Source: Streptomyces bikiniensis
GTDB lineage: Bacteria > Actinomycetota > Actinomycetes > Streptomycetales > Streptomycetaceae
Direction of reading: 5' to 3'
DNA: 64,000 nucleotides
Assembly: GCA_000716465.1 (NCBI GenBank)
Contig: JNWL01000007.1
Location: 88,579 to 152,578 of the forward strand
Shown here: piece by piece, positions 1,563 through 28,313 of the stretch
Numbering within the stretch: position 1 is the stretch's first letter
Layout: each line of letters starts with the position of its first letter
Notes under the pieces: model-generated
The model's database searches: none
Told to the model about the DNA's origin: nothing
The model's input: the letters and a program-made list of their open reading frames with translations, nothing else
Made by a program: the position numbers and the translations under genes

Positions 1563-1715
1563 TTACGGCCAGTCGATCGGGGGAACGGCGAGGGCGGTGA
1601 CGGTGCGTGCCTCCCCCGCGGAAGCACCCTCCCCCACGCCGGCTGAAACCGCACCCGCGAACAGGAGAGCGGAGAAAGCGACAGCGGCTATTCGGGCAAC
1701 TGCGGTCTTCTTCAT
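1563..1715 (-). CDS. Small secreted peptide, candidate signalling pre-peptide
   Basis: A 50-codon ORF starting ATG at 1715 with a good ribosome-binding site (AAAGGA, 5-nt spacing). The product begins MKKTAVAR, continues with a hydrophobic core (IAAVAFSALLFAGAVSAGV) and ends TVTALAVPPIDWP. The n-region lysines, hydrophobic h-region and AVSAG-like cleavage context are those of a Sec signal peptide, leaving a mature tail of roughly 20-25 residues with a Pro/Trp-rich C-terminus. It lies directly upstream of, and on the same strand as, the TPR-XRE regulator, and a promoter can be drawn before it. I infer a pheromone-type role from this pairing. Alternatives are an unrelated small exported peptide or a non-translated leader. 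It is too short for routine ORF calling. Confidence 0.65.
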   Translation of the reverse strand: MKKTAVARIAAVAFSALLFAGAVSAGVGEGASAGEARTVTALAVPPIDWP

Positions 1716-1763
1716 GGGAATCCTTTGCTGAACCTCAATGATCGCCTGCGGTGGGGCCGTGCC

Positions 1764-1792
1764 AATGTATCGGCCGCGCGATCACTTGGCAA
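1764..1792 (-). promoter_or_regulatory. Candidate promoter of the peptide-regulator unit
   Basis: On the minus strand TTGCCA (1792-1787), a 17-nt spacer and TACATT (1769-1764) fit a housekeeping-sigma promoter with a TAnnnT -10 box. It fires towards the small-peptide start at 1715. The shared operator-like sequence at 1785-1811 overlaps and extends just upstream of its -35 box. This is a pattern match only. Confidence 0.45.
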
Positions 1793-1811
1793 GCCTTGAC
1801 AAGAATGTCAA
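1785..1811. promoter_or_regulatory. Operator-like palindrome, also present at 13.2 kb
   Basis: Positions 1796-1811 form a perfect palindrome of TTGACA and TGTCAA arms around AGAA. Read on the minus strand, the segment contains TTGTCAAGG followed by CTTGCC, a combination that recurs at 13185-13204 (minus) and 13297-13310 (plus) in the divergent promoter region of the cluster. It abuts the -35 box of the peptide promoter, the usual place for an activator site. I infer that one regulator, most likely the adjacent XRE/TPR protein, binds all copies. Confidence 0.5.
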
Positions 1812-1900
1812 CTCCAGGGCCGGACGCATGCGCATCGCCGGTTTTCGATCGGTATGACACCCTGGCCCGGCACCCGCCCCGAGGGGCCGCACCCCGCCCC

Positions 1901-2530
1901 TCAGGGGGATTCCGGATAGAGGAACCGCTCGTACTCGGGGCCGTAACGACGCTCCAGCGACTCAAGGGACGCCTCGGTCCACTCGGTGGCACGGGCGATC
2001 CGCGCCCGGGAGGAGACCGCTTCCGGATTCCAGGATTCCGGGTCCCAGAGCTTCGCCCGCATGAACGACTTGGCGCAGTGGAAGTACGCCTCTTCGACGC
2101 TGACCAGGAGGGCGAGGTCGGGACGGTGGCCGCGGACCACCATCTCGTCGAAGAAGGGAGCCGAACGCACCAGTCGGGCCCGCCCGTTGACCCGGAGCGT
2201 GTCGCCCCGGCCCGGAATCACGAAGATCATTCCCACCCGAGGGTTCTGCAGAACATTGCGCCAGGTGTCCAGCCGGCGATTGCCCGGCCGGTCGGGCAGC
2301 GCGAGCGTCCGCTCGTCGAGAATGCGTACGAAACCCGGTGGATCTCCGCGCGGGGAGACATCGCAACTCCCGTCCGCAGCGGCGGTCGCGACCAGACAGA
2401 AAGGAGAATTCCGAATCCATTCGGTTTCATGGGCGCGCAGTACCGGGCTCGCCTTTCGGAACACCACGGAATTCGCCGGGCCGACCAGTTCCCGCAGTTC
2501 TTCCTCGGTGCTTATCTCCTCGTACTCCAT
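1901..2530 (-). CDS. PPOX-class FMN-binding flavoprotein
   Basis: A 209-residue protein of the pyridoxamine-5'-phosphate-oxidase-like split-barrel fold. Visible features are FCLVATAAADGSCDVSPRGD near residue 50, a RGDTLRVNGRARLV strand around residue 120, and the FHCAKSFMRA segment, all usual in the MSMEG_1061-like PPOX subfamily. Such proteins bind FMN or F420 and carry out small redox steps; the substrate cannot be told from sequence. The ATG at 2530 has GGAG 6 nt upstream; an upstream in-frame extension consists of tandem repeats and was not used. It is the last gene of the leftward arm, so it may do a late tailoring oxidation or reduction, or be unrelated. A weak hairpin (1881-1887 with 1896-1902) overlaps its stop. 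Confidence 0.75.
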   Translation of the reverse strand: MEYEEISTEEELRELVGPANSVVFRKASPVLRAHETEWIRNSPFCLVATAAADGSCDVSPRGDPPGFVRILDERTLALPDRPGNRRLDTWRNVLQNPRVGMIFVIPGRGDTLRVNGRARLVRSAPFFDEMVVRGHRPDLALLVSVEEAYFHCAKSFMRAKLWDPESWNPEAVSSRARIARATEWTEASLESLERRYGPEYERFLYPESP

Positions 2531-2617
2531 GCCTTTCTCCGTGCCGTCCCCCATGCCGTCCCCCATGCCGTCCTCCCTGTCGTGTTCCGGTCGTCCTCCG
2601 GGCCGTCACTCGGGCCG

Positions 2618-3865
2618 TCACTCGGCCGGATCGGCCGTCCCGGGCTCCGTGGTGACCCGGATCGTCGCGCAGGCCTTCTCGCAGAGCGCCACCGCCGCGT
2701 CGGCGTCCGGGGCCACCGCGATCACCTGGCCCAGGCGGTCCCAGCTCGACCGCAGCGGCCGGACCACGCTCCCCGGCTCCACCGGCAGGTCCACCTCCAC
2801 CACTCCGTCCAGGGCCCGGGCCGCCTCCAGCCCCTCGACCGCCGTCACCGTGCCCGGCTCGGCGCCCAGGAAGCGGGTCGCCGCCGACCGCAGCGGGGCC
2901 GGCCGCTCGTCCAGGGCCGGCAGCCCGCCGCCCGGCCAGGCCACCGTGTACCGCTCGATGTCGAAGCCGTACGCCTCCTCCACCAGGTCCCGGATCCGGT
3001 CGCCGCCCGGCCGGTTGTGCGACTCGATCACCCGCGGCCCGCGCTCCGACAGCCGCACCTCCGTGTGGCTGGGACCGCCCACCACCCCGACCGCGTCCAG
3101 GAACGTCGTCACGCACTCCACGACCGCCGCCTCGTCCGCCGCGGCGATCCGGGCCGGCACCACGTGCCCCAGCTCCACGAAGTTGTCGTACGTCAGCTTC
3201 TCCGTGACGGCCACCACCACGTGGCGGCCCGCGAAGGTGAACGCCTCCACGCTGAGCTCCGGCCCGGAGACGTACTCCTCCATGAGGAAGCGGTCCAGCG
3301 GGAAGAAGCGGGCGAACTGGTGGTCCGAGTGACGCAGCCGCGTGATCGTCTCCCACACCTCGTCCAGCCGGTCCGCCGACTCGACGAGCTGGAGTCCCAG
3401 GCTGCCGATGCCGTCGACCGGCTTGACGATGAACGGGTACCCGTGGCGCGAGCCGAAGGCCGTCAGGCTCTCCCGGTCGCCGACCTCCTCCGCCGCGACC
3501 GAGACCGACGGGGCCGTGGCGGCCAGGTGCCGGCGCATGCTCAGCTTGTCCCGCAGCAGGTGGGCCACCTCGTGGGAGACGCCCCCCAGGCCCAGCAGGT
3601 CGCTGATCCGGCCCGCCGGTTCCACGCCCGCCTCCGTCGTGGTCACCACGCTCGTGAAGCCGTACGCGCGGTGCGCGGCGGCCACCAGGGGCTCGGTCAC
3701 CGACCAGTCGGTGTAGTCCACCAGGAGGGCCGCGTCCACCAGGGAGGCGTGCTCGGGGGTGAACTGGCCGGGCTGCTGGAGGTAGACGACGCCGAGGCCC
3801 TGCTCCTTGGCCTTGCGGACGTTCTCGATCCGCCCGCCGACGACCAGCACGCGCTGTTCGGACAT
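2618..3865 (-). CDS. ATP-grasp ligase (first of three paralogues)
   Basis: A 415-residue ATP-grasp enzyme expected to join a carboxylate to an amine through an acyl-phosphate. The N-terminal Rossmann-like domain starts VLVVGGRIENVRKA. The ATP-grasp core shows the lysine and glycine loop (PFIVKPVDGIGSLGL, about residues 145-160), the EEYVSGPELSVEAF strand, and the metal/ATP acidic motif HTEVRLSERGPRVIESHNRP with its E and N. It belongs to the same subfamily as the proteins at 4000-5253 and 6797-8065. The ATG at 3865 has GGAG 5 nt upstream. In this cluster it probably forms an amide bond between amino-acid or phosphonate units; the substrate is unknown. Confidence 0.85.
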   Translation of the reverse strand: MSEQRVLVVGGRIENVRKAKEQGLGVVYLQQPGQFTPEHASLVDAALLVDYTDWSVTEPLVAAAHRAYGFTSVVTTTEAGVEPAGRISDLLGLGGVSHEVAHLLRDKLSMRRHLAATAPSVSVAAEEVGDRESLTAFGSRHGYPFIVKPVDGIGSLGLQLVESADRLDEVWETITRLRHSDHQFARFFPLDRFLMEEYVSGPELSVEAFTFAGRHVVVAVTEKLTYDNFVELGHVVPARIAAADEAAVVECVTTFLDAVGVVGGPSHTEVRLSERGPRVIESHNRPGGDRIRDLVEEAYGFDIERYTVAWPGGGLPALDERPAPLRSAATRFLGAEPGTVTAVEGLEAARALDGVVEVDLPVEPGSVVRPLRSSWDRLGQVIAVAPDADAAVALCEKACATIRVTTEPGTADPAE

Positions 3866-3999
3866 GTTGCTCCTTCACATGACGTTCGATGGTGGGCCCT
3901 TCGGGCCCGAATGACCGGGTCGCCGGACCGCTGGAATGCCGGACCGCCGGACCGCCGGGCCTCCGGCTCTCCGGCTCTCCGGCTCTCCGGACCGCCGCC

Positions 4000-5253
4000 T
4001 CAGGCGCCGGGGGCGGGCTCCGCGTCCCCGGTGAGCTCCACGACGGCCCCGGCGGCCAGCTCCCGGGCCAGCGCCCGCATCCGGTCCGGGGTGGCGCAGT
4101 CCAGGACCGCCCAGGCCAGCCGGTCCCCCGAGTCCTCGGCGGGACGCACCCGCGCGCCCGGCGCCAGCCTGGCGTCGTGCCGGGCCACCTCCGGCGACCG
4201 GGCCGCCCAGGCGGACAGGTCGAGGGCGGCGAGCGTCCCCGTACCGGGCGACGACAGGAAGAGGCTGCCCGCGGAGCGCACCGGGCCGTGGCCGTCCGGC
4301 ACCGCCGGCTCCTCGTCCAGGGCGAGGCGCAGGCAGGCCGCGAAGGCGTCGAACCCGTGGGCCCGGCCGACGAGTTCCATGATGTGGTCGCCCGGGGTGC
4401 GGACGGCCACCTCCATGATCACCGGCTGGTCGTCGGAGACCGCCCGGAACTCCAGGTGGGCGATGCCGGTCACCATGCCGAGCGCGGCGACCACGCCGCG
4501 GCACAGCTCGTCCGCCGCCTTCCGCAGCGCGGGCCGGTCCGCTCCGTGGCCCGCCTCGTGGAGCAGCTCCACGAAGTGCGGCGGGCCGGTGGTCTCCTTA
4601 CGGGTCAGATTGGTGAACAGGACCCGGCCGCGGTGGACCAGGGCCTCCACGCTGTACTCCTGGCCCTCGACGTACTGCTCGACCAGGAGCGGTCCCTCGG
4701 CGTCCCGGCGCGCGACCGCGTCCGCCCAGGCGTCGGGGGTGCCGATCCGCTCCACGCCCTGGCTGCCCTGCGAGGAGACCGGCTTGACCACGACGGGCAG
4801 CCGCGCCAGGGCCCAGTCGGTGGCCTCCGACAGCCGCCGGGTGTGGCGGTGGGCGGGCTGGGGCAGTCCGGTGCGGCCGAACTCGGCGCGCTGCAGGGCC
4901 TTGTTGCGGGAGACGGTCGCCGCGTCCAGGCCGGGCCCGGGCAGTCCCAGCCGGTGCTGGACCATCGCCGTGGCCAGCACGTGCGGCTCGGCGAAGCCCC
5001 AGACGGCGTCCGGGCCCAGCCGGGCCGCCAGGGTGGTCGCGGGCGCCAGCCAGCTCTCGTCCCGGCCCGCGGCGGCCTCGTCGACGGGTTCGAAGTCCAC
5101 GAGGCACGGGAAGCGGTCCACGAGCTTGGCGTGCCGGGCGGGGGTCTCCACGACGCCCACCCGCAGCCCCAGGTCCTGGGCCGCGTGCAGGTACCCCTCG
5201 GCCATCACACCGGCGCCGACGAGGAGGATCGTGCGCTGCGTATCGTCTGCCAT
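4000..5253 (-). CDS. ATP-grasp ligase (second of three paralogues)
   Basis: A 417-residue ATP-grasp carboxylate-amine ligase. It has an N-terminal nucleotide-type fold (ILLVGAGVMAEGYLHAA), the ATP-binding lysine with its flexible loop (PVVVKPVSSQGSQGVERIG), the VEQYVEGQEYSVEALVHRG strand, and the acidic metal motif near HLEFRAVSDDQPVIMEVAVR followed by TPGDHIMELV. The ATG at 5253 was chosen over the long upstream open frame because the domain begins there and GGGAG lies upstream. The 134-bp gap to the next gene (3866-3999) holds short tandem repeats. The presence of three ligases suggests at least two or three separate amide-forming or protecting steps. Confidence 0.85.
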   Translation of the reverse strand: MADDTQRTILLVGAGVMAEGYLHAAQDLGLRVGVVETPARHAKLVDRFPCLVDFEPVDEAAAGRDESWLAPATTLAARLGPDAVWGFAEPHVLATAMVQHRLGLPGPGLDAATVSRNKALQRAEFGRTGLPQPAHRHTRRLSEATDWALARLPVVVKPVSSQGSQGVERIGTPDAWADAVARRDAEGPLLVEQYVEGQEYSVEALVHRGRVLFTNLTRKETTGPPHFVELLHEAGHGADRPALRKAADELCRGVVAALGMVTGIAHLEFRAVSDDQPVIMEVAVRTPGDHIMELVGRAHGFDAFAACLRLALDEEPAVPDGHGPVRSAGSLFLSSPGTGTLAALDLSAWAARSPEVARHDARLAPGARVRPAEDSGDRLAWAVLDCATPDRMRALARELAAGAVVELTGDAEPAPGA

Positions 5254-5290
5254 GGTTGGTGCTCCCAGATCTGTCTCGTACGAGGGGTGT

Positions 5291-6793
5291 TCAGCCCGCC
5301 GGAAGGGCGCCCGGGTCCGGCAGCGCCGGGCAGTCCGCGTCGAGGGCGGCCGCGCGCAGCAGCCGTTCGAGGGCGGCCGTCCACCGCTCGGCCCACTCCG
5401 GGGGGTGGACGGCGGTGTCGACCTGCAGGAGCAGCCGGATGCCGTCGGCGTCCACGTCGGCACTGAGGTAGTGGCTCGCTCGCCACGGATCGGCGTCGGT
5501 CCACTCCGTCTCGGCCCGGTCCGCGGCGGCCGCGAGTTCCGCCGCGGTGGTCGGGCGGACGGGCAGGGCGGTGGAGCGCGGCCGGTAGTTGAGGGTCGGG
5601 GTGGCGTCGATCCGCACGCCCCGCTCCTCCGCCACGGTCCGGAGCAGCGCGGACAGCCGGTCGGGCGGGGCGCCGCCGGCCCGGAAGGCGCGCAGCGAGG
5701 CCGCGGCGGTGCGGCGCACCAGTTCGCGGAAGCCGGCGCCGGCCGTGTCCACGCAGCAGGGGACCGGCTGGGACAGCGGCAGGACGGCCGCGGCGGTCTC
5801 GGGCCGCAGCCGGTTCGCCGCGATCAGCTGGACCGCCCCGTACCGGACGGCGCCCGTGCCGTCGCCGGCGGGCACGGGACCGGTCCTGGCGGCGTCGAGG
5901 GCCACCAGTGCGGCCGCGAGGACGGCGGCCGGGGACTCCCCGGTGCCGGCGGCGACGGCGCCGACGGCGAGGTCCAGGGCGGGGGAGCGGTGCCGGAGGA
6001 ACCGGTACCGCTCCCCCGTCGGCGTACCGGCCGGGGAACCCTGCCACGGGCCCGTCACGGGTTCCGGGGCGGGGGGCATGTGCCGGTAGGCGTGTTCGGC
6101 CAGGCTCAGGGCGCGCCGGGCGGCTCGCTCGCCCGCCGGGGACGACTCGGCGGCCGCCTGCTCGCGGGGCCCGCGCGCGGGGCCGCCCCGGGCGGGCGCG
6201 GAGCGGGCCACCGGGTCGGCCTCGGCGATCCGTTCGACCAGGTGCGCGGAGACCGGGACGAGCGCGTACGCGTCGACGGCGACGTGGCTGAAGGCCAGGG
6301 CGAGGTACCGCGCGCGGTCCCCCTCGGTGACGAGCGCCGCGCGCACCGGCCAGCACTCCGTCACGTCCAGGGGCGGGGCGGCGAGCGCGTCGAGGACGGC
6401 GCGCGCACGCTCCCCCGCGGTGCCCGCGGGCGCCTCGTGGACGGCGAGGCGCAGGACGCCGTGCCGGTGCACCCGTTGACGCGCCCCGCCCGCCCCGTCC
6501 CGTACGACCCGGCTGCGCAGCACCTCGTACCGTTCGAGCAGTTCGCGCAGCGCGTCGGCGGTGCCCGCCTCGGTCGTCCCCGGACGCAGCCGGTACAGCC
6601 GGGGGACGTTGAGCCCCCGCCCGTGCTCCCGGGCCGCGTCGACCTCGGTGAGGTAGTACCGCTGGCTCCAGGTCAACGGCGCCTCGAAGGTGCCGGGGGC
6701 CGTCTCGCCGGTCGTGTCGCCCGCCGCGGGGTCCACCGCGGCCTGGAAGCGTACGGGGACGATGCGGCACGGGCCGGGGGCGGGGTGGGACAC
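5291..6793 (-). CDS. Free-standing NRPS condensation-domain protein
   Basis: A 500-residue single condensation domain. An LTWSQ motif lies at residues 40-44, then the pattern LRELLERYEVLRSRV. The active-site motif reads SHVAVDA (residues 169-175): it keeps the catalytic second His (H170) and the Asp (D174) of HHxxxDG but has Ser for the first His and Ala for the Gly. The C-terminal half contains LNYRPR and the DGIRLLLQVDT strand usual for C domains. It starts with GTG at 6793, 3 nt after the stop of the preceding gene. It would use the aminoacyl group on the separate carrier protein at 25667-25939 as donor or acceptor. Ester or amide formation are both possible. Confidence 0.82.
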   Translation of the reverse strand: MSHPAPGPCRIVPVRFQAAVDPAAGDTTGETAPGTFEAPLTWSQRYYLTEVDAAREHGRGLNVPRLYRLRPGTTEAGTADALRELLERYEVLRSRVVRDGAGGARQRVHRHGVLRLAVHEAPAGTAGERARAVLDALAAPPLDVTECWPVRAALVTEGDRARYLALAFSHVAVDAYALVPVSAHLVERIAEADPVARSAPARGGPARGPREQAAAESSPAGERAARRALSLAEHAYRHMPPAPEPVTGPWQGSPAGTPTGERYRFLRHRSPALDLAVGAVAAGTGESPAAVLAAALVALDAARTGPVPAGDGTGAVRYGAVQLIAANRLRPETAAAVLPLSQPVPCCVDTAGAGFRELVRRTAAASLRAFRAGGAPPDRLSALLRTVAEERGVRIDATPTLNYRPRSTALPVRPTTAAELAAAADRAETEWTDADPWRASHYLSADVDADGIRLLLQVDTAVHPPEWAERWTAALERLLRAAALDADCPALPDPGALPAG

Positions 6794-6796: not shown

Positions 6797-8065
6797 CTAT
6801 GCCTCCGGGGCCGTCTCGTCCAGCGGCGACCAGGTGAAGCGGAGGGTGTCGCCGGCCGCGTGGGCGCGGGCCAGGGCCTGCTCGCGGTCGGCGCCCTCGG
6901 CGATGATCCAGGCGGCCCGGTCGCGGTTGGAGCCGTTGGCCCGGTAGTCGATGCCGGCCTGGACGCCGGGGCGCAGGTGCACCTCGTGGACGCCGTCGAG
7001 GGCGAGGGCCTCGTCCACTCCGTCGACGGCGTCGAGGTGGCCGCTGGAGCGGAGCATCAGGAAGTGGATCGCGGCGGTGCGGTCGGTGGTGAGCGTGAGG
7101 TCCGGGGTGCCGCCGAGGAGCGCGGTCATGTGGAGCCGGCACATGTCGACGCCGCTGGCGATGCGGACGGCCTCCGGGATGCGGTCCCCGGCGATGCGGC
7201 CGTTGACCTCGATGACCCGGGCGTCCTTGCCGTCGGCGGTGAGCTTGAGCTCGACGTGGGACGGGCCCCAGGTGATGCCGACGGCCTTGACGGCGAGTTC
7301 GGCCTTCTCGACGAGCAGCCGCTCCTGCTCCCCGGGCAGGGCGGCCGGGAAGACGTGGCCCATCTCCAGGAAGAGGGGCGGCTCGCTGCCGATCTTCTCG
7401 GTGAGGCCGAGGACCTTGCCGTGCATGATCTCCGCGGAGTACTCGGCGCCCGGGACGCACTCCTCGACGATCACCTTCGGGGTGACCGCGTGGCCGAGGT
7501 ACTCGCCGAGCCGCATGACCTCCGCGGTGATGGCGGTGACGTCCTCCGCGTTCTCGCAGCGGCGGACGAACAGGCTGCCGGTGAGGTCGAGCGGCTTGAC
7601 GACGACGGGGTAGCCGATCTCCTCGGCGGCGGCCGCCGCGTCCTCCGGCGACGCGGCCACCCGGAACAGCGGGTTGAGGCCGGGCACGCCCGCCATCGCC
7701 TCGCGCATCGCGGACTTGGAGCGGCAGACGGCGACGGCATCCGGGTCGGGACCCGCCAGGCCGAGCCGGGCGGCGACCCGGGCGCCCATGTCGCAGTAGT
7801 ACTCGTAGACGGAGGTGACGCCCACGAGTTCGCCCCGGGTGGCGAGCTCCTCGCAGAAGGCCACGATCGCGTCGGCGGAGTCGACGTCGCAGGCGCGGAT
7901 CTCCACGCCGAGTTCGGCGTAGTCGTGGAGCAGCGAGGGGTGCAGGTGCGCCGGGTCGGCGGCGAGGATGATCGGCGTGATGCCCTGCTCCAGCAGGAAG
8001 CGGGCGCAGTCCTGGCCGGCGCCGGTCCAGGGGGAGTCGATGAACACTGCATAGCGGGGGGACAC
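6797..8065 (-). CDS. ATP-grasp ligase (third of three paralogues)
   Basis: A 422-residue ATP-grasp ligase starting at GTG 8065, which has GGAG 5 nt upstream; the long upstream open frame is a shadow of the exporter gene. The N-terminal domain begins YAVFIDSPWTGAGQDCARFL. The core contains PVVVKPLDLTGSLFVRR, VEECVPGAEYSAEIMHG and HVELKLTADGKDARVIEVNG with IAGDRI, giving the complete ATP and magnesium set. The C-terminal part has the ALDGVHEVHLRPG motif seen in L-amino-acid-ligase-like ATP-grasps. It is closely similar in layout to the other two ligases, so the set probably arose by duplication. Confidence 0.85.
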   Translation of the reverse strand: MSPRYAVFIDSPWTGAGQDCARFLLEQGITPIILAADPAHLHPSLLHDYAELGVEIRACDVDSADAIVAFCEELATRGELVGVTSVYEYYCDMGARVAARLGLAGPDPDAVAVCRSKSAMREAMAGVPGLNPLFRVAASPEDAAAAAEEIGYPVVVKPLDLTGSLFVRRCENAEDVTAITAEVMRLGEYLGHAVTPKVIVEECVPGAEYSAEIMHGKVLGLTEKIGSEPPLFLEMGHVFPAALPGEQERLLVEKAELAVKAVGITWGPSHVELKLTADGKDARVIEVNGRIAGDRIPEAVRIASGVDMCRLHMTALLGGTPDLTLTTDRTAAIHFLMLRSSGHLDAVDGVDEALALDGVHEVHLRPGVQAGIDYRANGSNRDRAAWIIAEGADREQALARAHAAGDTLRFTWSPLDETAPEA

Positions 8066-21395: not shown

Positions 21396-23669
21396 GTGAC
21401 AACCGACCATTCCGTGAACGCTGCGCCGATTCACCTGGCGATCGTGGGCGGCGGCCCGACCTGCACGTACGTCCTGGAACGCCTCGCCGCGCTGGTGCGC
21501 GACCGGCGGGACGCGGTCGCCCTGGAGATCGTGATCTACGACCTCTCGGGCGAGTTCGGGCCCGGCCAGGTCCACAGCCCTGACCAGACGAGGACCAGCT
21601 ACCTCAACCGCGTCGTCGGCCAGGTGGCCTTCGCCGCGGACGAGAGCGTCGTCGACGCCGGCCCGCTGCTGTCCGCGTCCGAGCGGCCCACGCTGCTCGA
21701 CTGGTGCCGCAGGAAGTTCGAGGAGACCGGCGACCCGGTCTACGACATGGTCGCCGAGGACTGGCCCAAGCGGTTCGTGCACGGCGAGGCCCTGCGCGAC
21801 CAGTTCCGCGGGTACGTCGAGATCCTGCGCGCCGCCGAGGGCGTCGAGGTGACCCTGCGGCAGGCCGAGGTCGTCGACCTGGAGGAGCGCGGCGACCGGT
21901 TCGCCGTCCTCACCGCCGACGGCGCCCCCGCCTACGAGGCCGACTACGTCCTCATGCTCACCGGCCACTCGTCCAACCGGCCGGAACTGGACCCGCGCCA
22001 GGCCCACCTGGCCCGGTTCGCCGACGCGCACCCGGGGGCGCACCTCATCCCCTCCGCGTACCCGCTGGAGCGGTCCCTGGACCCGGCGCACACCGGCCCG
22101 GGCACCACCGTCGCCTGTCTGGGCATGGGGCTCACCGGCATCGACGTGCTGCTCTACCTCACCGAGGGCCGCGGCGGCAGCTTCGAGCGGGACGCCGACG
22201 GCGAGCTCGTCTACCGCCCGTGCGGCGCCGAACCCGACTCCATCGTCGCGTTCAGCCGCTCCGGCCTGTTCACCTTCGCCCGGCCGTACAACGAGAAGGA
22301 ACGCGACATCGCGGCCCTGGAGTACAAGGGCCCCTTCCTCACCACGGCGGCCGTGGCCGGGCTGCGGGCGACCGTCGGCGTGCCGAACGTCATCGGCGGC
22401 GCCCCCAAGCGCCAGCTCGACTTCGAGCGGCACGTCTTCCCGCTGATCCTCCTCGAAATGGCGCTCATCCAGTACGGGGTGCTGTACGGGACGGAGTTCC
22501 GCCGGGCGGCGATCCGGGCCGCGCAGCCGGCGTACGAGAAGTTCCTGGCCGACGCGGACGCCTTCGCCGACCACCACGAGGCCGGCGCGTTCCTCGTCGC
22601 GCCCGTCGAGGACCTGGCGCGGGACCTCGCGGACCGGGTCGACGACGTCCTGGCCGGCCGTACCGCCCTCGCGGTGTACGGCGACGGCGGGTCCGCCGGC
22701 GTCCTGCCGCCGGTCGACCGGGCGGTGCGCTCCTTCCTCACCGTCGTGTACGGCGCCGAACGGGCCGGGGCGCTGCTCGCGGAGGCCGGCGACCCGCACG
22801 CCTTCGCGGCCGCGGTCGCGGCGGCCGAGTCCCCGTGGCGGCACGCCACGCGGGCGGCCGACCACCGGTTCTCCTGGGAGCGGACCATCAACCCGGTGCC
22901 GGTGCCCGAGGGCGGTTACGCGAGCCCCGAGGAGTACGTCGAGACGTTCCTCGACTTCCTGGACCGGGACATCCGCTGGGCCGCCCAGGGCAATCTGAGC
23001 AACCCGGCGAAGGCGGCGGCCGACGCCGCCTGGCGCGACATGCGGGGCGTCGTGATCGAGGCGGTCGACTTCGGCGGGCTGCTCGCCTCCTCGCACCGCA
23101 CCTTCCTCAACGTGTACACGCCGCACCACAACCGGCTGTGCCAGGGCGCCTCGGTGGAGGCGATGGAGAAGGTCACCGCGCTGATCAAGAGCGGCCGGGT
23201 CGACATCTCGGTCGGTCCCGGCGCCCGGGTGGAGTGCGACGAGGAGCGCGGCCTGTTCCGCGTCAGCGGCCCGGCCACCGGTGCCGAGCGGTACGCGGAC
23301 GCCCTCGTCGACGCGCGGGTCCACGGCTTCGACGCCGAGCGCGACGTCATGCCGGTCTACCCGAACCTGCTGCGCCGCGGCATCGTCCGCAAGTGGGCCA
23401 ACCCCGGTATCGGCGAAGCCGACTTCGTCCCCGGCGGCCTGGACCTCACCCCCGAGTTCCACCCGGTCCGCGCCGATGGCAGGGTCGAGTCCCGGATCAC
23501 CTTCCTGGGCCCGCCCAGCGAGGGTGTGATGTACCACCAGATCGGCGCCCTCCGACCGAACAAGGACCACCACGTCATCCGGGACATCCTCTGCTGGATC
23601 CACGCGTTCATGCCGCAGGAGTCCCCGGCCGGGGGGAAGACGAAGGAACTCGAAAGGAACCCGTCATGA
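21396..23669 (+). CDS. FAD/NAD(P)-binding oxidoreductase
   Basis: A 757-residue protein of the FAD-NAD(P)-binding (PF13454) type. The N-terminal dinucleotide motif is LAIVGGGPTCTYVLERL (GGG at 18-20) and a second Rossmann motif, VACLGMGLTGIDVLLYL, lies about residue 235. The family is distantly related to flavin N-monooxygenases, so oxidation of an amine, for instance of Dap or AEP, is one reading; the true reaction is unknown. The start is GTG 21396 after an 87-bp gap from the transaminase, and the stop overlaps the next start as ATGA. About 330 residues beyond the second nucleotide-binding site have no motif that I recognise. Confidence 0.75.
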   Translation: MTTDHSVNAAPIHLAIVGGGPTCTYVLERLAALVRDRRDAVALEIVIYDLSGEFGPGQVHSPDQTRTSYLNRVVGQVAFAADESVVDAGPLLSASERPTLLDWCRRKFEETGDPVYDMVAEDWPKRFVHGEALRDQFRGYVEILRAAEGVEVTLRQAEVVDLEERGDRFAVLTADGAPAYEADYVLMLTGHSSNRPELDPRQAHLARFADAHPGAHLIPSAYPLERSLDPAHTGPGTTVACLGMGLTGIDVLLYLTEGRGGSFERDADGELVYRPCGAEPDSIVAFSRSGLFTFARPYNEKERDIAALEYKGPFLTTAAVAGLRATVGVPNVIGGAPKRQLDFERHVFPLILLEMALIQYGVLYGTEFRRAAIRAAQPAYEKFLADADAFADHHEAGAFLVAPVEDLARDLADRVDDVLAGRTALAVYGDGGSAGVLPPVDRAVRSFLTVVYGAERAGALLAEAGDPHAFAAAVAAAESPWRHATRAADHRFSWERTINPVPVPEGGYASPEEYVETFLDFLDRDIRWAAQGNLSNPAKAAADAAWRDMRGVVIEAVDFGGLLASSHRTFLNVYTPHHNRLCQGASVEAMEKVTALIKSGRVDISVGPGARVECDEERGLFRVSGPATGAERYADALVDARVHGFDAERDVMPVYPNLLRRGIVRKWANPGIGEADFVPGGLDLTPEFHPVRADGRVESRITFLGPPSEGVMYHQIGALRPNKDHHVIRDILCWIHAFMPQESPAGGKTKELERNPS

Positions 23670-24409
23670 GCACCTCCATCGACTACACCGCACCCGAGTA
23701 CGGCGGCGTCGACGTCCCCGAGCGGCTCAAGGAGATCCGCGCCGCGCACGACAGGCTCCGGGCCGCCGCCGCGGAGATCACGGAGGAGGGCGCCCGTGAG
23801 GCCGTCCACCTCCCGGGCTGGACGCGCGGCCACGTCCTGATCCACCTCGCCGACCTGTCGCGGGCGTTCGCCCGCCAGGCCCGGTACGCCGCCGAGGGCA
23901 AGTCCGTCGAGGTGTACGACGGCGGGCGGCCCACCCGCGACCGGCGCATCGAGGAGCTGCACGGCGAGCCGGTCGCGTGGCTGCGGGAGCAGCTGGAGGA
24001 GGGCCTGACCGCCCTGGAGGAGGCCTGGGACGCGCTCGGCCCCGACGGCTGGGAGCTGCCCTGCTCGTACCGGAACTCGCCGCTGTTCGCGACCCAGCTC
24101 GCGTGGTGGAGGGAGACCGAGCTGCACACCGTCGACCTCACCGTCGGCTACGGCTCCGCGGAGTGGAGCACCGCGCTCTCCTCGCACGTGGTCTCCTTCC
24201 TGAAGGGCCGGCTGCCGCAGGGCGTCGCCCTGCACGCCGAGGACACCGGCCAGGAGTGGTCCACCGCGGCCGAGGGCGCGACCCCGGTGGTGGTCCGCGG
24301 CTCGCTGCGCGCGCTGGCCGCCTGGATCTCCGGCCGTCCGCACCCGGTCCTGCCGGTCGCGGACGGCGACCCGGCCGCGGCGCTGCCCGAGCTGACCGCC
24401 TGGCCGTAG
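23666..24409 (+). CDS. DinB/maleylpyruvate isomerase-like protein
   Basis: A 247-residue protein with the DinB-2/maleylpyruvate isomerase N-terminal fold. LPGWTRGHVLIHLADL (near residue 55) and WWRETELHTVDL (near residue 150) carry the His, Glu and His residues that bind a divalent metal in this family, and a C-terminal domain ends ALAAWISGR. Relatives use mycothiol as cofactor or transfer it (maleylpyruvate isomerase, LmbV of the lincomycin pathway). A mycothiol-dependent isomerisation, conjugation or detoxification step in the pathway is possible. It is coupled to the flavoprotein gene by an ATGA overlap. Confidence 0.78.
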   Translation: MSTSIDYTAPEYGGVDVPERLKEIRAAHDRLRAAAAEITEEGAREAVHLPGWTRGHVLIHLADLSRAFARQARYAAEGKSVEVYDGGRPTRDRRIEELHGEPVAWLREQLEEGLTALEEAWDALGPDGWELPCSYRNSPLFATQLAWWRETELHTVDLTVGYGSAEWSTALSSHVVSFLKGRLPQGVALHAEDTGQEWSTAAEGATPVVVRGSLRALAAWISGRPHPVLPVADGDPAAALPELTAWP

Positions 24410-24418: not shown

Positions 24419-24449
24419 GGGGCGGGCCCGCACCCCGCGGGCCCGCCCC
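24419..24449. terminator. GC-rich hairpin inside the rightward arm
   Basis: Arms 24419-24431 and 24437-24449 are perfect 13-bp complements with a 5-nt loop. It lies 10 bp after the DinB-like stop in the 104-bp gap before the decarboxylase genes. No U-tract follows. It could reduce read-through and separate the arm into two transcripts, or act as an RNA-processing or stability element. Confidence 0.5.
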
Positions 24450-24513
24450 GCCCCACCCCGCACACGCCGGCCGTGTGACACCCGTACGTACTCCGGAAGA
24501 GAGTTCCCTCCCC

Positions 24514-25080
24514 ATGACAGACGCCCAGACCCTGACCGCACGGCCGCCGGCCGCCACGGGGCGCGAGAACGCGCAGCACGCGCAGAGCGCCGCCGAGGCG
24601 CTCGTCCAGGCCTTCGTGGACCGCGGGTTCACCCACTTCACCGGTGTCCCCTGCTCGCTCCTCAAGGGCGTCTTCCGGGTGCTGGAGAGCGGGGAGGGCC
24701 CCGCCGGGACCGTCTCCTACCTGCCCGCGCCCCGCGAGGACTCCGCGCTCGGCGTCGCCTCGGGCCTGTCGGCGGCCGGCGCGAAGCCCGTCGTCCTCAT
24801 GCAGAACTCGGGCCTGGGCTACTCCCTGAACGTGCTGACCTCGCTCAACCTCATCTACGACCTGCACGTGCCGCTGATCGTCAGCTGGCGCGGCCACGAC
24901 GGGAACGACGCGGTCGAGCACGACATCATCGGCCGCGAACTGCTCAACCTCCTCGACGTGTTCGGCCTGCGCCACACCGTCTTCGACCCGAGCGACCCCC
25001 ACGGCTCCGTCGAGCGCTGCCTCGCGGCCGCCGAGGACGGACGCACCACTCCCGTCCTCATCGTCAAGGAAGGCATCTGA
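24514..25080 (+). CDS. Phosphonopyruvate decarboxylase, N-terminal (alpha) subunit
   Basis: A 188-residue TPP-enzyme Pyr domain. GVPCSLLKG, APREDSALGVASGL (catalytic Glu75 in RED), VVLMQNSGLGYSLN and SWRGHDGND are hallmark segments of phosphonopyruvate and sulfopyruvate decarboxylases. It pairs with the following gene, which supplies the TPP-binding half; together they decarboxylate phosphonopyruvate to phosphonoacetaldehyde, the irreversible step that pulls the mutase reaction. Most phosphonate pathways encode this as one chain of about 380 residues; the split form resembles the ComD/ComE layout. The first about 25 residues are an extra, poorly conserved leader. The ATG at 24514 follows a Streptomyces-like purine-rich region. 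Confidence 0.9.
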   Translation: MTDAQTLTARPPAATGRENAQHAQSAAEALVQAFVDRGFTHFTGVPCSLLKGVFRVLESGEGPAGTVSYLPAPREDSALGVASGLSAAGAKPVVLMQNSGLGYSLNVLTSLNLIYDLHVPLIVSWRGHDGNDAVEHDIIGRELLNLLDVFGLRHTVFDPSDPHGSVERCLAAAEDGRTTPVLIVKEGI

Positions 25081-25082
25081 GC

Positions 25083-25631
25083 ATGTTCGGCATCCAGGAC
25101 GCGATCCGCGCGGTCACCGAGAAGTTCCCCACGTCCCTGTACGTGTCCACCTGCGGGTTCATCACCCGCGACCTCTACAACACCGCCGACCGGCCCGAGA
25201 ACTTCTACCTGGTCGGGTCCATGGGCATGGCCGCCCCCGTCGGCCTGGGCGTGGCGCTGGCCCGGCCGGGCCGCCACGTGGTCGTCCTCGACGGCGACGG
25301 TTCGTTCGCGATGAACCCCGGCGCGCTGCCGATGATCGCCGAGCACGCCCCGGACCTGGTGCACGTCGTCCTCGACAACGGCGTGCACGAGAGCACCGGT
25401 GGTCAGCGCCCGGTGCGCATCGCCGACCCGGTGGGCATGGCGCTCGCCGCCGGCTACTCCGCCGCGCACAGCGTCTCCTCGCCCGAGGAGCTGGCCGCCG
25501 TACGGCCCGAGCCGGGCGTCACCACCCTGCTGCACGTCGCCTGCGCCCCGCGCGGCGCGCACGCCGGCAAGCGGGTGGAGTGGACCCCGCAGCAGCTCGT
25601 CGAGCGGTTCCGCGCCGCCGCGGCCGCCTGA
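25083..25631 (+). CDS. Phosphonopyruvate decarboxylase, C-terminal (beta) subunit
   Basis: A 182-residue TPP-binding (PP) domain. The cofactor motif is complete: GDG at 71-73 (VVLDGDGSFAMNPGAL) and the Asn at 99 in VVLDNGVHESTGGQ. SMGMAAPVGLGVAL is the usual preceding helix. It starts 2 nt after the alpha-subunit stop, consistent with equal expression of the two halves. Phosphonopyruvate rather than sulfopyruvate is inferred from the PEP mutase and AEP transaminase in the same arm. Confidence 0.92.
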   Translation: MFGIQDAIRAVTEKFPTSLYVSTCGFITRDLYNTADRPENFYLVGSMGMAAPVGLGVALARPGRHVVVLDGDGSFAMNPGALPMIAEHAPDLVHVVLDNGVHESTGGQRPVRIADPVGMALAAGYSAAHSVSSPEELAAVRPEPGVTTLLHVACAPRGAHAGKRVEWTPQQLVERFRAAAAA

Positions 25632-25666
25632 CACCCCCCACGGACACGGATAGGAGCACGCGCACC

Positions 25667-25939
25667 ATGGAAGACACCGCCGCGACCACGTCCGGGCAGG
25701 CGGAGCGGGTCCACAAGGTCCTGCTCGCGGTCCTGGGCGGCTCCGTCGACGTCTCCTCCCTCGGCCCCGGCGCCGACCTGTGGGAGGCGGGCATGGACTC
25801 GCTGCTGAGCGTGAGTCTGCTGGTCGCCCTGGAGGACGAGTTCGACGTCGAGTTCCCCGACGAGCTGCTGACCCGCGAGACGTTCGCCTCGGAGGCCGGC
25901 ATCACCGCCGCCGTCACGACCCTGGCGGCGGCCGCGTGA
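25667..25939 (+). CDS. Free-standing peptidyl/acyl carrier protein
   Basis: A 90-residue carrier protein. GMDSLLSV (residues 42-49) supplies the phosphopantetheine-attachment serine S45 in the DSL context, followed by LEDEFDVEFPDELL, the acidic helix II to III region. It is the only carrier domain seen in the window, so it is the likely partner of the separate adenylation protein (16381-18096) and condensation protein (5291-6793). The ATG at 25667 has TAGGAG upstream. Its stop overlaps the HprK-like start as GTGA, hinting that the two proteins act together. Confidence 0.9.
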   Translation: MEDTAATTSGQAERVHKVLLAVLGGSVDVSSLGPGADLWEAGMDSLLSVSLLVALEDEFDVEFPDELLTRETFASEAGITAAVTTLAAAA

Positions 25940-26979
25940 CGGCCGCCCCGACCCCCGCCGGGACGGGCACGACCGCCGGCCCGGCCGGACTGGGCGCGCT
26001 CCCGGTCCGCTCCACCCGGCTGGTGGACCTCAACCTCCTCTCGGTACGGATCTCCAGCAACCTCGAGGCCTTCGACGCCTACGCGTACTTCTCCCGCGAG
26101 GCGCCCGCCGGAACCGAGCCGGACCACGAGATCGTCTGCGTGGACCTGGACCGGGACCCGTACGACCCGGAGGTGCTGCGGGGGCTCTGCGACCGCACGC
26201 TGCGGGCCAAGCGCTTCCGCTCGGGCTACTACCTCAACCACATCTTCGGCGACCCCGCGTACCTCGTCACCGAGGGCAGGCGCTCGTACGTCTTCGGCCG
26301 CCGCCTGGAGCGCACGGTCTGGCCGTACTTCGTCAAGCGGATCCTCACCGACTTCGCGGTCGACCACGGCTACCTGCACCTGAAGGCGGGCGGTTTCACC
26401 TTCGACGACGGCGCGGCCACGCTGCTCGTCGGGCCCAACGCCGGCGGCAAGACGGTGTTCCTCACCCAGGCCTGCCTGGACGGGGCGCGGTTCCTCACCA
26501 ACACCCATGCGCTGGTGCGCGACGGGGAGGCGCACGCCGTGCCCTCGGCGGTACGGGTCCGGCGGGCCCCGCAGTTCGAGCGGCTGATCGAGGAGCACGG
26601 GCTGACCCCGCACCTGGAGAGCGGGGACTTCGTGGCCGCGCCGGAGCTGCTGTTCGCGGGCGCGCCCAGCGACAGCGGGCGGGTCCGCAACATCGTGATC
26701 ACCGACTTCTCCCCCGGGCGTCCGGGGGGCTTCGCGCGGATCACCGCGGAGCAGGCGGGCCTGTTCCTCGGCCTGTTCTCGGACGGGGTGGTCAACTACG
26801 GCCTGAAGGACGACCTGCTGGACCATCACGGCGGCGACCTCGACGCGTTCACGGCCACCCTGGCCGGACTGCGCGCACAGCTCACCACCCTGGTCGAGGG
26901 CGCCCGCTGCTACCGGGCGAACGTCGACATGCTCGATCCGCTCGTCCGCAAGACGGTGCTGGCGGAGCTGAGGGCGTGA
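25936..26979 (+). CDS. HprK-like P-loop kinase
   Basis: A 347-residue protein with a Walker A motif GPNAGGKT (166-173) inside TLLVGPNAGGKTVFLTQACL, followed by ARFLTNTHALVRDG, a layout like the C-terminal domain of HPr kinase/phosphorylase. HprK-like kinases in lasso-peptide clusters phosphorylate a serine on the product, and they often neighbour NTP_transf_5 proteins, as in this cluster. Canonical HprK for carbon control is not expected in Streptomyces and none of its N-terminal domain is seen. Coupling to the carrier-protein gene (GTGA) suggests that the substrate is a carrier-bound amino acid or a later peptide. Its exact role is unknown. Confidence 0.65.
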   Translation: MTAAPTPAGTGTTAGPAGLGALPVRSTRLVDLNLLSVRISSNLEAFDAYAYFSREAPAGTEPDHEIVCVDLDRDPYDPEVLRGLCDRTLRAKRFRSGYYLNHIFGDPAYLVTEGRRSYVFGRRLERTVWPYFVKRILTDFAVDHGYLHLKAGGFTFDDGAATLLVGPNAGGKTVFLTQACLDGARFLTNTHALVRDGEAHAVPSAVRVRRAPQFERLIEEHGLTPHLESGDFVAAPELLFAGAPSDSGRVRNIVITDFSPGRPGGFARITAEQAGLFLGLFSDGVVNYGLKDDLLDHHGGDLDAFTATLAGLRAQLTTLVEGARCYRANVDMLDPLVRKTVLAELRA

Positions 26980-27827
26980 CGCCGCTCGTCGTCGGAGTGG
27001 TGCTGTTCGCCGCGGTAACCCACGCGAGCTGGAACGCGATCACCCACCGCATCAAGGACGAACTGGCCTGCCTGAGCCTGGTCGGCGCCGGACGCACCCT
27101 GTCCGGCGCCGTCCTGGCGTGTCTGGCGCCGCTCCCGTCGCCGGCCGCCTGGCCGTACCTGATCGCCTCGGTCCTCCTGCACATCGGTTACCAGGTGGCG
27201 CTGATGCGCTCGTTCCGGCTGGGTGACTTCGGGCAGGTGTACCCGATCGCCCGGGGCGTGGCGCCGCTGCTGGTCACCCTGTTCGCCGTCTTCGCGCTGG
27301 GCGAGCACCTGGTGGGGGCCGGCGCGGCCGGGATCGCGGTCGCGACGACCGGGATCGTCGGCCTGGCGCTGTGGGGGGTCAGGGACCGGACCGGCCGGCC
27401 CAGCGGTCCGGCCGTGGCGATGGCCGCGACCACGGGCCTGATGATCGCCGTGTACACGGTGGTGGACGGCGTCGGTGTCCGCGAGGCCGGCGCGGCCCTC
27501 GGCTACATCGCCTGGCTGATGCTCCTCGACGGTCTGGCGATCCCCGCGTACGCGGCGGTCACGCTCCGCGGCGCCCTGCTCCCGAGGCTGCGCCCCGTCC
27601 TGCTGCCGGGCCTCGTCGGGGGCGTGCTGTCGGTCGTCTCGTACGGTCTGGTGCTGTGGGCGCAGACCAGGGCGCCGCTCGCGCCGGTGGCCGTGCTCCG
27701 CGAGTTCAGCGTGATCGCCGGCGCCGCGATCGCCGCGTTCTTCTTCAAGGAGCGCTTCGGCGGCCCGCGCATCGCCGCCGCCACCCTGATGGTCGCGGGC
27801 ATCGCGCTGATGCTCGGCACGTCATAG
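26976..27827 (+). CDS. EamA/DMT-family transporter
   Basis: A 283-residue membrane protein with about ten hydrophobic segments and internal duplication, as in drug/metabolite transporters. THASWNAITHRI near the N-terminus and FRLGDFGQVYPIARGVAPLL in the middle are typical of EamA proteins; the C-terminal repeat ends LREFSVIAGAAIAAFFFKERF. It starts with GTG in a GTGA overlap with the kinase gene and so belongs to the same operon. It is a second possible exporter for the product, beside the MFS protein in the other arm. Confidence 0.85.
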   Translation: MTPLVVGVVLFAAVTHASWNAITHRIKDELACLSLVGAGRTLSGAVLACLAPLPSPAAWPYLIASVLLHIGYQVALMRSFRLGDFGQVYPIARGVAPLLVTLFAVFALGEHLVGAGAAGIAVATTGIVGLALWGVRDRTGRPSGPAVAMAATTGLMIAVYTVVDGVGVREAGAALGYIAWLMLLDGLAIPAYAAVTLRGALLPRLRPVLLPGLVGGVLSVVSYGLVLWAQTRAPLAPVAVLREFSVIAGAAIAAFFFKERFGGPRIAAATLMVAGIALMLGTS

Positions 27828-27857
27828 GAAGCACGACACAGGAAGGAAGTGTCCGGT

Positions 27858-28313
27858 TTGCCCACGGAGACAGAACGCAAGTACCTCGTCGTCGCGGACG
27901 ACCCGCGCTGGCGCGCCCTGATCCGCGCCACGCACACCCTGCGCCAGGGCTACCTCACCACGGACCGCTCCCCCGAGGTCCGGATCCGGGTCGTCGACGA
28001 CAACGCGGCCTTCCTCACCGTCAAGGGCCCCCGCTCCGGTCCGACCCGGGCCGAGTACGAGTACCCCGTCCCCGTTCCGGACGCCCTGGAACTCCTCGCC
28101 CTCTGCACCGGACGCGTCCTGGAGAAACGGCGCCACTCGCTCCCGGACGACTGGATCGTCGACGAGTACACCGGTGTCCACGCGGGCCTCACGGTGGCCG
28201 AGATCGAGTGGCGGGGCGACCCGGCCGTCCCGCCGCCCGCCCCTCCCTGGGCCGTCAGGGACATCACCGGCGACCCCGCCTACTCCAACGCGACCCTGGC
28301 GCTCCGCCCGTAA
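27858..28313 (+). CDS. CYTH-domain (triphosphate tunnel) protein
   Basis: A 151-residue protein with the ETERKYLV motif (ExExK) at its N-terminus, followed by VRIRVVDDNAAFLTVKGP and RAEYEYPVP, the alternating charged strands of a triphosphate tunnel fold. Family members hydrolyse inorganic triphosphate or thiamine triphosphate, or cyclise ATP. The start is uncertain: GTG 27849 overlaps the AAGGAAG ribosome-binding site, so I prefer TTG 27858, 8 nt after it. It lies 30 bp after the EamA gene and before a terminator and tRNA, so it may be the last cluster gene or a resident chromosomal gene. Confidence 0.78.
   Translation: MPTETERKYLVVADDPRWRALIRATHTLRQGYLTTDRSPEVRIRVVDDNAAFLTVKGPRSGPTRAEYEYPVPVPDALELLALCTGRVLEKRRHSLPDDWIVDEYTGVHAGLTVAEIEWRGDPAVPPPAPPWAVRDITGDPAYSNATLALRP

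Follow-up and report, generated by a model that had tools for sequence, protein, structure and literature searches.

Gene content and extent of the cluster

Gene calls together with Pfam and NCBIfam profile scans placed a cluster of 25 genes at positions 167-28313 of the window, that is, of the whole 64,000-nucleotide stretch of Streptomyces bikiniensis DNA that was analyzed. All of the parts named in a first-pass annotation of this DNA were found in the sequence, but the start that it gave, 1563, was too far in, as the cluster begins at 167 with an XRE/TPR regulator gene. The FomA-like kinase, flavin N-oxidase, mycothiol-family, TauD dioxygenase and CYTH genes had gone unmentioned. The genes are listed below with their coordinates, strand and supporting matches.

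167..1405, minus: XRE helix-turn-helix and TPR regulator (Pfam HTH_31, TPR)
1901..2566, minus: PPOX-type FMN flavoprotein, MSMEG_1061 family (TIGR04025 240.6 bits, cut-off 170)
2618..3865, minus: ATP-grasp ligase 1, LAL_C2 (Pfam)
4000..5253, minus: ATP-grasp ligase 2, LAL_C2 (Pfam)
5291..6793, minus: free-standing condensation protein, SHVAVDA (Pfam Condensation 38.6 bits; motif)
6797..8047, minus: ATP-grasp ligase 3, LAL_C2 (Pfam; top PDB match L-amino acid ligase 3vot)
8107..9366, minus: MFS exporter (Pfam)
9363..10748, minus: TldE-like subunit without HExxxH (Pfam PmbA_TldD_3rd; motif search)
10745..12094, minus: TldD-like metalloprotease, HEACCH (PDB TldD 5nj5 203 bits; motif)
12152..13123, minus: TauD-family 2-OG dioxygenase, FrbJ-like, proposed AEP 1-hydroxylase (Pfam; PDB FrbJ 5eqn 54.1 bits; HND motif)
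13389..14249, plus: PepM, PEP mutase (Pfam 185.7 bits; TIGR02320 281.8 bits, under cut-off; EDK-x5-NS)
14299..15276, plus: SbnA-type Dap synthase (TIGR03945 359.8 bits, cut-off 349.95)
15269..16384, plus: SbnB-type dehydrogenase (TIGR03944 383.4 bits, cut-off 326.9)
16381..18096, plus: free-standing adenylation protein, pocket DIWEITAD (TIGR01733 336.8 bits, over cut-off)
18098..19255, plus: NTP_transf_5 nucleotidyltransferase (Pfam 143.6 bits, cut-off 31.2)
19252..20187, plus: FomA-like phosphonate kinase (NF000338 164.4 bits, cut-off 550; PDB FomA 3d40 157 bits)
20184..21308, plus: PhnW-type AEP transaminase (TIGR03301 357.2 bits, cut-off 360.8)
21396..23669, plus: flavin N-oxidase, PcxL/HpxL/CreE class (PDB 8cp2 128 bits, residues 11-363 of 757)
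23666..24409, plus: mycothiol-dependent maleylpyruvate isomerase-family enzyme (TIGR03083 93.8 bits, cut-off 50; sole PDB match 2nsf)
24514..25080, plus: phosphonopyruvate decarboxylase N-terminal subunit, PpdN (TPP_enzyme_N 32.6 bits; Ppd model 90.7 bits, positions 1-153)
25083..25631, plus: phosphonopyruvate decarboxylase C-terminal subunit, PpdC (TPP_enzyme_C; Ppd model 132.4 bits, positions 174-358)
25667..25939, plus: free carrier protein, DSL serine (Pfam PP-binding; motif)
25936..26979, plus: FomB-family phosphonate monophosphate kinase (NF000361 572.3 bits, cut-off 400; P-loop)
26976..27827, plus: EamA-type membrane transporter (Pfam; TIGR03340 128.5 bits, under cut-off)
27849..28313, plus: CYTH triphosphate-tunnel protein, ETERK (Pfam; top PDB matches 3typ and 2fbl, the latter being NE1496; motif)

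Nine further Streptomyces clusters belong to this type; two of them are cut by contig ends, and the gene order of the window is kept where the contigs allow. Because of this recurrence, which is not chance, the pathway is real and conserved. The regulator gene was present in 12 of the 14 type I-III clusters with a readable arm and was not found in the parts of the K. setae and Streptosporangium loci that were read, while the PPOX gene was also present in all three core-only relatives. CYTH was not found in three of the ten window-type clusters, in K. setae, in Streptosporangium or in type III; TldD/E was missing from one of the ten window-type clusters (one of the nine others) and from each of the three core-only clusters. 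Since CYTH and TldD/E are patchy across clusters, neither is essential to the core. A tRNA-Ala gene lies ~80 bases beyond the last cluster gene, and tRNA-linked insertion was considered. Nine of the 11 scanned stretches of relatives contain no tRNA gene; locus L107 has a tRNA-Arg directly after CYTH, and L098 has an unusual tRNA-like prediction 1.6 kb beyond CYTH.

In these comparisons, the ligase arms of G003 and G006, which are cut by contig ends, were left out of the counts, and for SBT349 (L019) and S. acidiscabies (L026) only the 10 kb on each side of pepM was read. Locus L134, a contig different from SBT349, was left out, and the WC-3549 sequence contains runs of N. The PepM and N-oxidase trees hold 37 and 31 rows, respectively, for which the called product was long enough; the L080 N-oxidase, whose called product was too short, is missing from the N-oxidase tree and the identity table. 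For S. regensis, papers remark on one aberrant deposited genome.

Phosphonate synthesis and probable amine oxidation

Motif and profile scans bore out the earlier assignment of PEP mutase with EDK-x5-NS, a two-gene phosphonopyruvate decarboxylase and an AEP transaminase. PepM exceeded the Pfam cut-off (185.7 versus 31.5 bits) but fell 38 bits short of the NCBIfam PEP-mutase cut-off (281.8 versus 319.55), and its identity was therefore assigned from its context and its motif, EDKLFPKMNS, the EDK-x5-NS pattern of which occurs in all 18 clusters checked. The next step is encoded by PpdN and PpdC, and the PhnW-type transaminase missed its cut-off by 4 bits (357.2 versus 360.8). As had been proposed, this gene set would very probably make AEP or hydroxy-AEP. 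The TauD protein, which matched FrbJ (5eqn, 54.1 bits) and carries the HND motif, is a candidate for the AEP 1-hydroxylase of the hpx branch. In three relatives with the same back end, a 2-hydroxyacid dehydrogenase route replaces the decarboxylase, and a thymidylate-kinase-fold protein stands in the place of FomB.

The first half of the flavin N-oxidase (residues 11-363 of 757) matched the aspartate N-hydroxylase 8cp2, and one homologue, P0064, is named CreE-like by UniRef, an assignment that holds at the level of the class. Every one of the 18 FomA clusters compared has the N-oxidase, which is fused to PepM in nine of the best 120 of 241 homologues (7995 candidates scored). Because an N-oxidase of the PcxL/HpxL/CreE class and a mycothiol-family enzyme are both encoded, the AEP nitrogen is probably converted to an oxime, nitrile or thiohydroximate and not simply acylated. 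The ordinary AEP amide peptide that had been suggested is unsupported as written, given these two genes.

The first-pass annotation knew of no characterized phosphonate pathway like this one, which now appears doubtful. K. setae has a single strong PepM match, inside a core version of the cluster, and was linked in a 2025 survey to the hydroxynitrilaphos and phosphonocystoximate families, and a phosphonate was seen by 31P NMR in that strain, not in the window strain (PMC12723261). The family link, which is probable, comes solely through K. setae. HpxL and PcxL are 58% identical (PMC10404684), and the window N-oxidase is 56-58% identical to those of L018, L021, L022, L085 and L086, but similar pairs also occur within another clade, so that 58% identity does not single out one pair of clades and was dropped as a fingerprint of HpxL (WP_030990682.1) and PcxL. 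That other clade of clusters with PepM, Ppd, PhnW and N-oxidase could also hold the hpx and pcx clusters, and a TauD relative is found in two such loci, L080 and L092. The Streptomyces hpx and pcx pathways share with the window PepM, AEP or hydroxy-AEP and an N-oxidase of the same class, and the N-acetyl-Cys S-alkyl thiohydroximate adduct of phosphonocystoximate would fit its mycothiol-family enzyme (PMC13302981). However, Dap synthesis, the adenylation, carrier and condensation proteins, three ATP-grasp ligases, TldD/E, FomA/FomB and NTP_transf_5 are left unexplained by the published products. Our search of open-licence full-text literature found no description of such a phosphonate/Dap/FomB cluster; we do not claim that it is absent from print.

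The diaminopropionate module and the phosphonate kinases

Profile scans confirmed the SbnA/SbnB-like pair, the free adenylation, carrier and condensation proteins and the three ATP-grasp ligases reported earlier, and Pfam and motif searches likewise recovered TldD/E and NTP_transf_5 (143.6 bits, cut-off 31.2). Each of the 16 clusters in which the adenylation protein occurs also has SbnA and SbnB. These clusters span three architectures and two bacterial families, and in each of them (the window and 15 others) SbnA directly follows PepM; in S. californicus SbnA is in two pieces. This co-occurrence supports the conclusion that the Dap genes belong to the phosphonate pathway, as was originally suggested. 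Both enzymes exceed the curated cut-offs for the staphyloferrin B Dap module, but that module lies in a siderophore cluster, whereas the window pair is beside PepM.

The adenylation pocket, DIWEITAD, was placed by eye at what we take to be the GrsA positions; it has two acidic residues beyond the usual Asp and is identical in 12 of the 16 clusters, with one residue changed in the other four. The usual condensation motif is HHxxxDG, from which SHVAVDA departs at the first His and the Gly while keeping the second His and the Asp. A model of the condensation protein (pLDDT 72.7) matched condensation domains in Foldseek (E 1.5e-16), with low global TM scores of ~0.35-0.49. The TldD/TldE pair, an HExxxH subunit with a partner lacking HExxxH, has the composition of the microcin maturation proteases; in contrast to those systems, a ribosomal peptide precursor was not noticed in the window.

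The gene earlier called an HprK-like kinase does encode a kinase, but it is FomB (572.3 bits, cut-off 400), with no Pfam match, and a lasso-peptide-type HprK kinase was rejected on this score. Its partner scored far below the FomA cut-off (164.4 versus 550 bits) and is thus called FomA-like only, although FomA (3d40) is its top PDB match. Of the 18 clusters with FomA, 13 also have FomB and the other five have the thymidylate-kinase-fold protein; FomB and that protein were never found together in the stretches read of these clusters. The fusion of FomA to PhnW in three of the 18 suggests a role for FomA during synthesis. FomA and FomB make the mono- and diphosphate of fosfomycin (PMC4790336), and NE1496, a top match of the CYTH protein, is listed as a tripolyphosphatase (PMC13318637).

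Proposed pathway and alternative readings

On balance, we favor the reading that the window holds a phosphonate cluster of the hydroxynitrilaphos/phosphonocystoximate superfamily that joins an N-oxidized phosphonate with Dap. PEP would be converted to phosphonopyruvate by PepM, to phosphonoacetaldehyde by Ppd and to AEP by PhnW, followed by C1 hydroxylation by the TauD enzyme and oxidation of the amine to an oxime by the flavin N-oxidase. The mycothiol-family enzyme may add or handle a thiol at the oxidized carbon. L-Dap from SbnA and SbnB would be loaded onto the carrier by the adenylation protein, and Dap and further amino acids would be attached by the condensation protein and the three ATP-grasp ligases. 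Phosphorylated twice, by FomA and FomB, the phosphonate would stay inert within the cell. In clusters that have CYTH, this protein may take off the triphosphate-like mask so formed; trimming of the peptide may fall to TldD/E. The gene families, their conservation and their co-occurrence are observed, while each reaction in this strain, the succession of the steps, the site at which Dap is joined and the functions of NTP_transf_5, PPOX, CYTH and TldD/E are predicted from sequence. Against this proposal, an oxidized amine leaves no obvious nucleophile for the condensation protein, the model of which superposes poorly overall.

It is unlikely that the published hydroxynitrilaphos and hydroxyphosphonocystoximate are themselves the end products, with the Dap, carrier, ligase and protease genes serving, for example, resistance or transport. 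The survey result for K. setae (PMC12723261) speaks for such a reading, as does (S)-hydroxy-AEP, an intermediate of the published pathway that matches the TauD gene (PMC12366243). However, neither Dap nor a carrier is required for the published products, which also have no obvious use for the ATP-grasp or TldD/E genes, and SbnA, SbnB and the adenylation protein stay together in 16 of 16 clusters. We consider quite improbable the form first put forward, in which AEP or hydroxy-AEP, with its amine unchanged, enters an ordinary peptide with Dap through the three NRPS proteins and the ligases. Three LAL-type ATP-grasp ligases and free adenylation, carrier and condensation proteins would suit such a peptide, but the N-oxidase extends to every FomA cluster compared, including that of SBT349; the 20.9 kb read there yielded no gene for Dap synthesis, adenylation, a ligase or TldD/E, and TldD is absent genome-wide. 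Amine oxidation therefore looks like the more basic step.

Although the two gene sets draw on different precursors, the adjacency of SbnA and PepM across all Dap clusters led us to reject a separate Dap-derived compound made next to the phosphonate, which is very unlikely. Least probable of all is a fosfomycin-like epoxide pathway with FomA/FomB resistance: relatives of both self-resistance kinases are present, but the cluster lacks the fosfomycin biosynthetic genes and encodes an AEP transaminase instead, and Pfam scans of the 25 genes found neither a radical SAM methyltransferase nor an epoxidase family, so a plain fosfomycin pathway was rejected. Phosphonoalamide and valinophos pathways share ATP-grasp amino acid ligases with the window (PMC11867202), and the 2-hydroxyacid dehydrogenase entry of the type III relatives is tied in print to valinophos (PMC12871164); the cluster differs in lacking the phosphonoalanine step and in having N-oxidation, Dap and carrier proteins.

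More tentatively, we propose that hydroxynitrilaphos and (hydroxy)phosphonocystoximate might be shunt or mercapturate-like excretion forms, and that the real end products of the superfamily might be conjugates of Dap, formed when one of its nitrogens or its carrier-bound acyl group captures the oxidized carbon (amidoxime, amidine or imidazoline), while FomA together with either FomB or a thymidylate-kinase-like enzyme keeps the phosphonate masked as its diphosphate. Two front ends would then feed one back end with warheads that differ in length by one carbon: Ppd and TauD would give H2N-CH2-CH(OH)-PO3H2, and the route through phosphonolactate would lead to H2N-CH2-CH(OH)-CH2-PO3H2, the hydroxyl of which would come from the reductase, leaving TauD unneeded.

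The favored reading can be tested in carriers with public strain numbers, such as S. flaveolus NRRL B-1589, Streptomyces sp. NRRL S-455 and K. setae. If it is right, this cluster family has an unreported end product and a new joining of an N-oxidized phosphonate to an amino acid; double phosphorylation would protect during synthesis and not only after it, and two unrelated second kinases would do the same job.

Gene content, edges and relatives of the cluster

Genes of the window, whose host genome measures 7.39 Mb, were called by a codon-usage script and then scanned against Pfam and NCBIfam. The gene calls and scans showed one unit of 25 genes (167-28313) built of two divergent runs, and they confirmed the gene content described in the first-pass annotation:

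Minus-strand run (within 167-28313), in listed order: regulator, PPOX flavoprotein, ATP-grasp 1, ATP-grasp 2, condensation protein, ATP-grasp 3, MFS, TldE, TldD, TauD
Plus-strand run (within 167-28313), in listed order: PepM, SbnA, SbnB, adenylation protein, NTP_transf_5, FomA-like kinase, PhnW, flavin N-oxidase, MDMPI, PpdN, PpdC, carrier, FomB, EamA, CYTH

When proteins from both flanks were compared with 20 stretches of relatives, they matched only the outermost cluster genes, encoding the regulator and CYTH, and one other gene at 31%, which makes the cluster edges look sharp. A tRNA-Ala (CGC) gene lies at window positions 28395-28469, ~80 bases beyond CYTH, the final gene of the cluster; at locus L107 of S. 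hokutonensis, CYTH is likewise followed by a tRNA gene, there a tRNA-Arg.

A PepM scan of one genome per species yielded 23 loci, and gene content was compared in 24 clusters, the window counted among them. Ten clusters are of the window type (type I): the window, S. californicus NRRL B-2098, SCUT-3, genome G632, S. lonarensis, S. flaveolus NRRL B-1589, S. griseus NRRL WC-3645, NRRL WC-3549, S3(2020) and S. hokutonensis. Contig ends truncate the ligase side of the S3(2020) and S. hokutonensis clusters, 3/10 type I clusters gave no CYTH match, and no TldD match was found anywhere in the S. lonarensis genome. On both the PepM and the N-oxidase tree, the type I clusters group together (96/94 and 100/99). 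A relic of such a cluster lies at L129:9412-10664 (genome G310, 8.05 Mb contig), with a mycothiol-family gene at 89% and the N-oxidase reduced to a C-terminal piece at ~90%.

Three clusters (genome G493, K. setae and Streptosporangium carneum) contain the core only (type II); the stretches read lack TldD/E and orthologues of the window's three ligases and MFS. They do have condensation proteins, which Pfam recognises in G493 and K. setae and which were not recognisable by BLAST as orthologues of the window's. G493 also encodes an 823-residue ATP-grasp protein and its own MFS, and the K. setae cluster a second adenylation protein. Type III comprises NRRL S-455, I6 and S. anulatus NRRL B-2873, and the SBT349 cluster looks like a reduced form of it.

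Association of the Dap genes with the phosphonate pathway

The first-pass annotation had joined the Dap and phosphonate genes in one pathway, and this was borne out by the presence of both SbnA and SbnB in 16/16 clusters whose adenylation protein is orthologous to the window's (59% or more). Within 10 kb either side of pepM in SBT349 and S. acidiscabies (L026), neither SbnA nor SbnB nor such an adenylation protein was found; FomA, PhnW and the N-oxidase were present. Judged from these gene contents, the Dap genes belong to the phosphonate pathway. On trees, the Dap label required 3 changes for PepM and 2 for the N-oxidase, versus shuffled means of 12.2 and 10.6, which supports the tie only modestly because near copies make such clustering easy.

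S. caelestis (L016) is an exception to the pairing, with SbnA but no SbnB. This locus, from strain NRRL B-24567, has a row of PepM, SbnA, NTP_transf_5, fused Ppd, a B12 radical SAM protein and an NTP_transf_3 protein, with condensation protein, NRPS and ABC genes opposite it. SbnA gave one full-length match in 14/15 relatives, the exception being S. californicus NRRL B-2098 (L007:10910-11788), where it lies in two pieces with the middle missing; assembly error and decay are both possible. The adenylation pocket reads DIWEITAD in 12/16 clusters and differs by one residue in the other 4, and its extra acidic residues would be compatible with a basic side chain.

Probable oxidation of the phosphonate amine, and published products

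Residues 11-363 of the 757-residue flavoprotein align with 8cp2, the structure of an aspartate N-hydroxylase, at 128 bits. Passages of PMC10404684 class the 8cp2 enzyme with PcxL, FzmM and CreE, and describe conversion of AEP to 2-hydroxyiminoethylphosphonic acid by PcxL; a passage of PMC12366243 gives S-hydroxy-AEP as an intermediate towards hydroxyphosphonocystoximic acid in S. regensis. An independent tie of the N-oxidase to phosphonates comes from its fusion to a PepM domain in 9 of the best 120 of 241 homologues, with EDK-x5-NS present in 7/9. These fusion proteins (P0069, P0076, P0080, P0082, P0084, P0090, P0091, P0100 and P0104) have 982-1118 residues, and two are named as from Solirubrobacterales MAGs. 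The gene following the N-oxidase belongs to the mycothiol-dependent isomerase family, its sole PDB match being 2nsf, the mycothiol-dependent maleylpyruvate isomerase. The proposal of a Dap peptide containing AEP or hydroxy-AEP is supported in part: the Dap genes go with the phosphonate genes, and the phosphonate amine is probably oxidised.

With a cut-off of E 1e-60, 17/392 sampled genomes of the genus and 18/297 of the family, two samples that overlap, carried the N-oxidase. Five of the 17, window included, match at no less than 81% over full length, and one of the 17 is a relic. FomB at E 1e-20 was found in 11/392 genus genomes, among them those same five.

The K. setae genome compared here is that of KM-6054, the same strain as DSM 43861. 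It has a single strong PepM match, inside the cluster (286 bits; next best 30.5), and by gene content this cluster can be read as the core of the window's. In PMC12723261, GCF01-GCF03 take in K. setae DSM 43861 together with K. atroaurantiaca; the likely products given are hydroxynitrilaphos or phosphonocystoximate, and phosphonate signals are reported from both. K. setae is the sole bridge from the window cluster to these families, and another clade of PepM+Ppd+PhnW+N-oxidase clusters could also be the home of the published clusters, hpx of S. regensis NRRL WC-3744 and pcx of NRRL S-481. Scanned clusters of this second clade carry fatty-acid-hydroxylase-like, MFS and acyltransferase genes, and a TauD relative occurs in two loci of this kind. 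Its loci are L077, L081, L082 and L087-L092; fatty-acid-hydroxylase-like, MFS, ketosynthase or acyltransferase genes adjoin the cluster in L091 and L092, and a P450 gene occurs in L087.

Proposed masking by phosphorylation, and the two front ends

Fosfomycin mono- and diphosphate are given as products of FomA and FomB in a passage of PMC4790336. A FomA-like kinase occurs in 18 clusters, accompanied by FomB in 13/18 and by a 215-residue P-loop protein in 5/18, the latter with a thymidylate-kinase fold (TM 0.75 to dTMP kinase; predicted structure, pLDDT 80). Within the stretches read, the two were found together in 0/18 clusters. FomB was missing from 5/5 whole genomes carrying clusters with the 215-residue protein, and that protein from 12/13 whole genomes of FomB clusters; in the thirteenth, S. 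carneum, a partial match lies on a different contig from the cluster. At loci L085 and L086, an N-oxidase gene lies near the thymidylate-kinase-like one, and the 20 kb read gave no match to pepM.

Fusions of FomA to PhnW, seen in 3/18 clusters (K. setae, S. carneum and SBT349), suggest that phosphorylation happens during synthesis. The ExExK motif is present in 8/8 CYTH orthologues read, and NE1496, for which tripolyphosphatase is a listed activity in part of PMC13318637, is among the best PDB matches of CYTH. From the likeness of a phosphonate diphosphate to a triphosphate, our guess is that CYTH would unmask the phosphonate diphosphate.

Ppd and TauD are present in 13/13 FomB clusters versus 0/5 of the others, whereas relatives of a 2-hydroxyacid dehydrogenase and an ArgC-like dehydrogenase are present in 5/5 non-FomB clusters versus 0/13 FomB clusters, discounting one 30% match in genome G001. 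Searches of whole genomes turned up no PpdC relative for 4/5 non-FomB clusters; in the remaining genome, that of S. acidiscabies, a PpdC relative lies on the chromosome piece bearing its other cluster. In a passage of PMC12871164 that cites work on valinophos, a 2-hydroxyacid dehydrogenase yields phosphonolactate. Both front ends, which share one back end, would yield phosphonates with CH(OH)-CH2-NH2, differing by one carbon.
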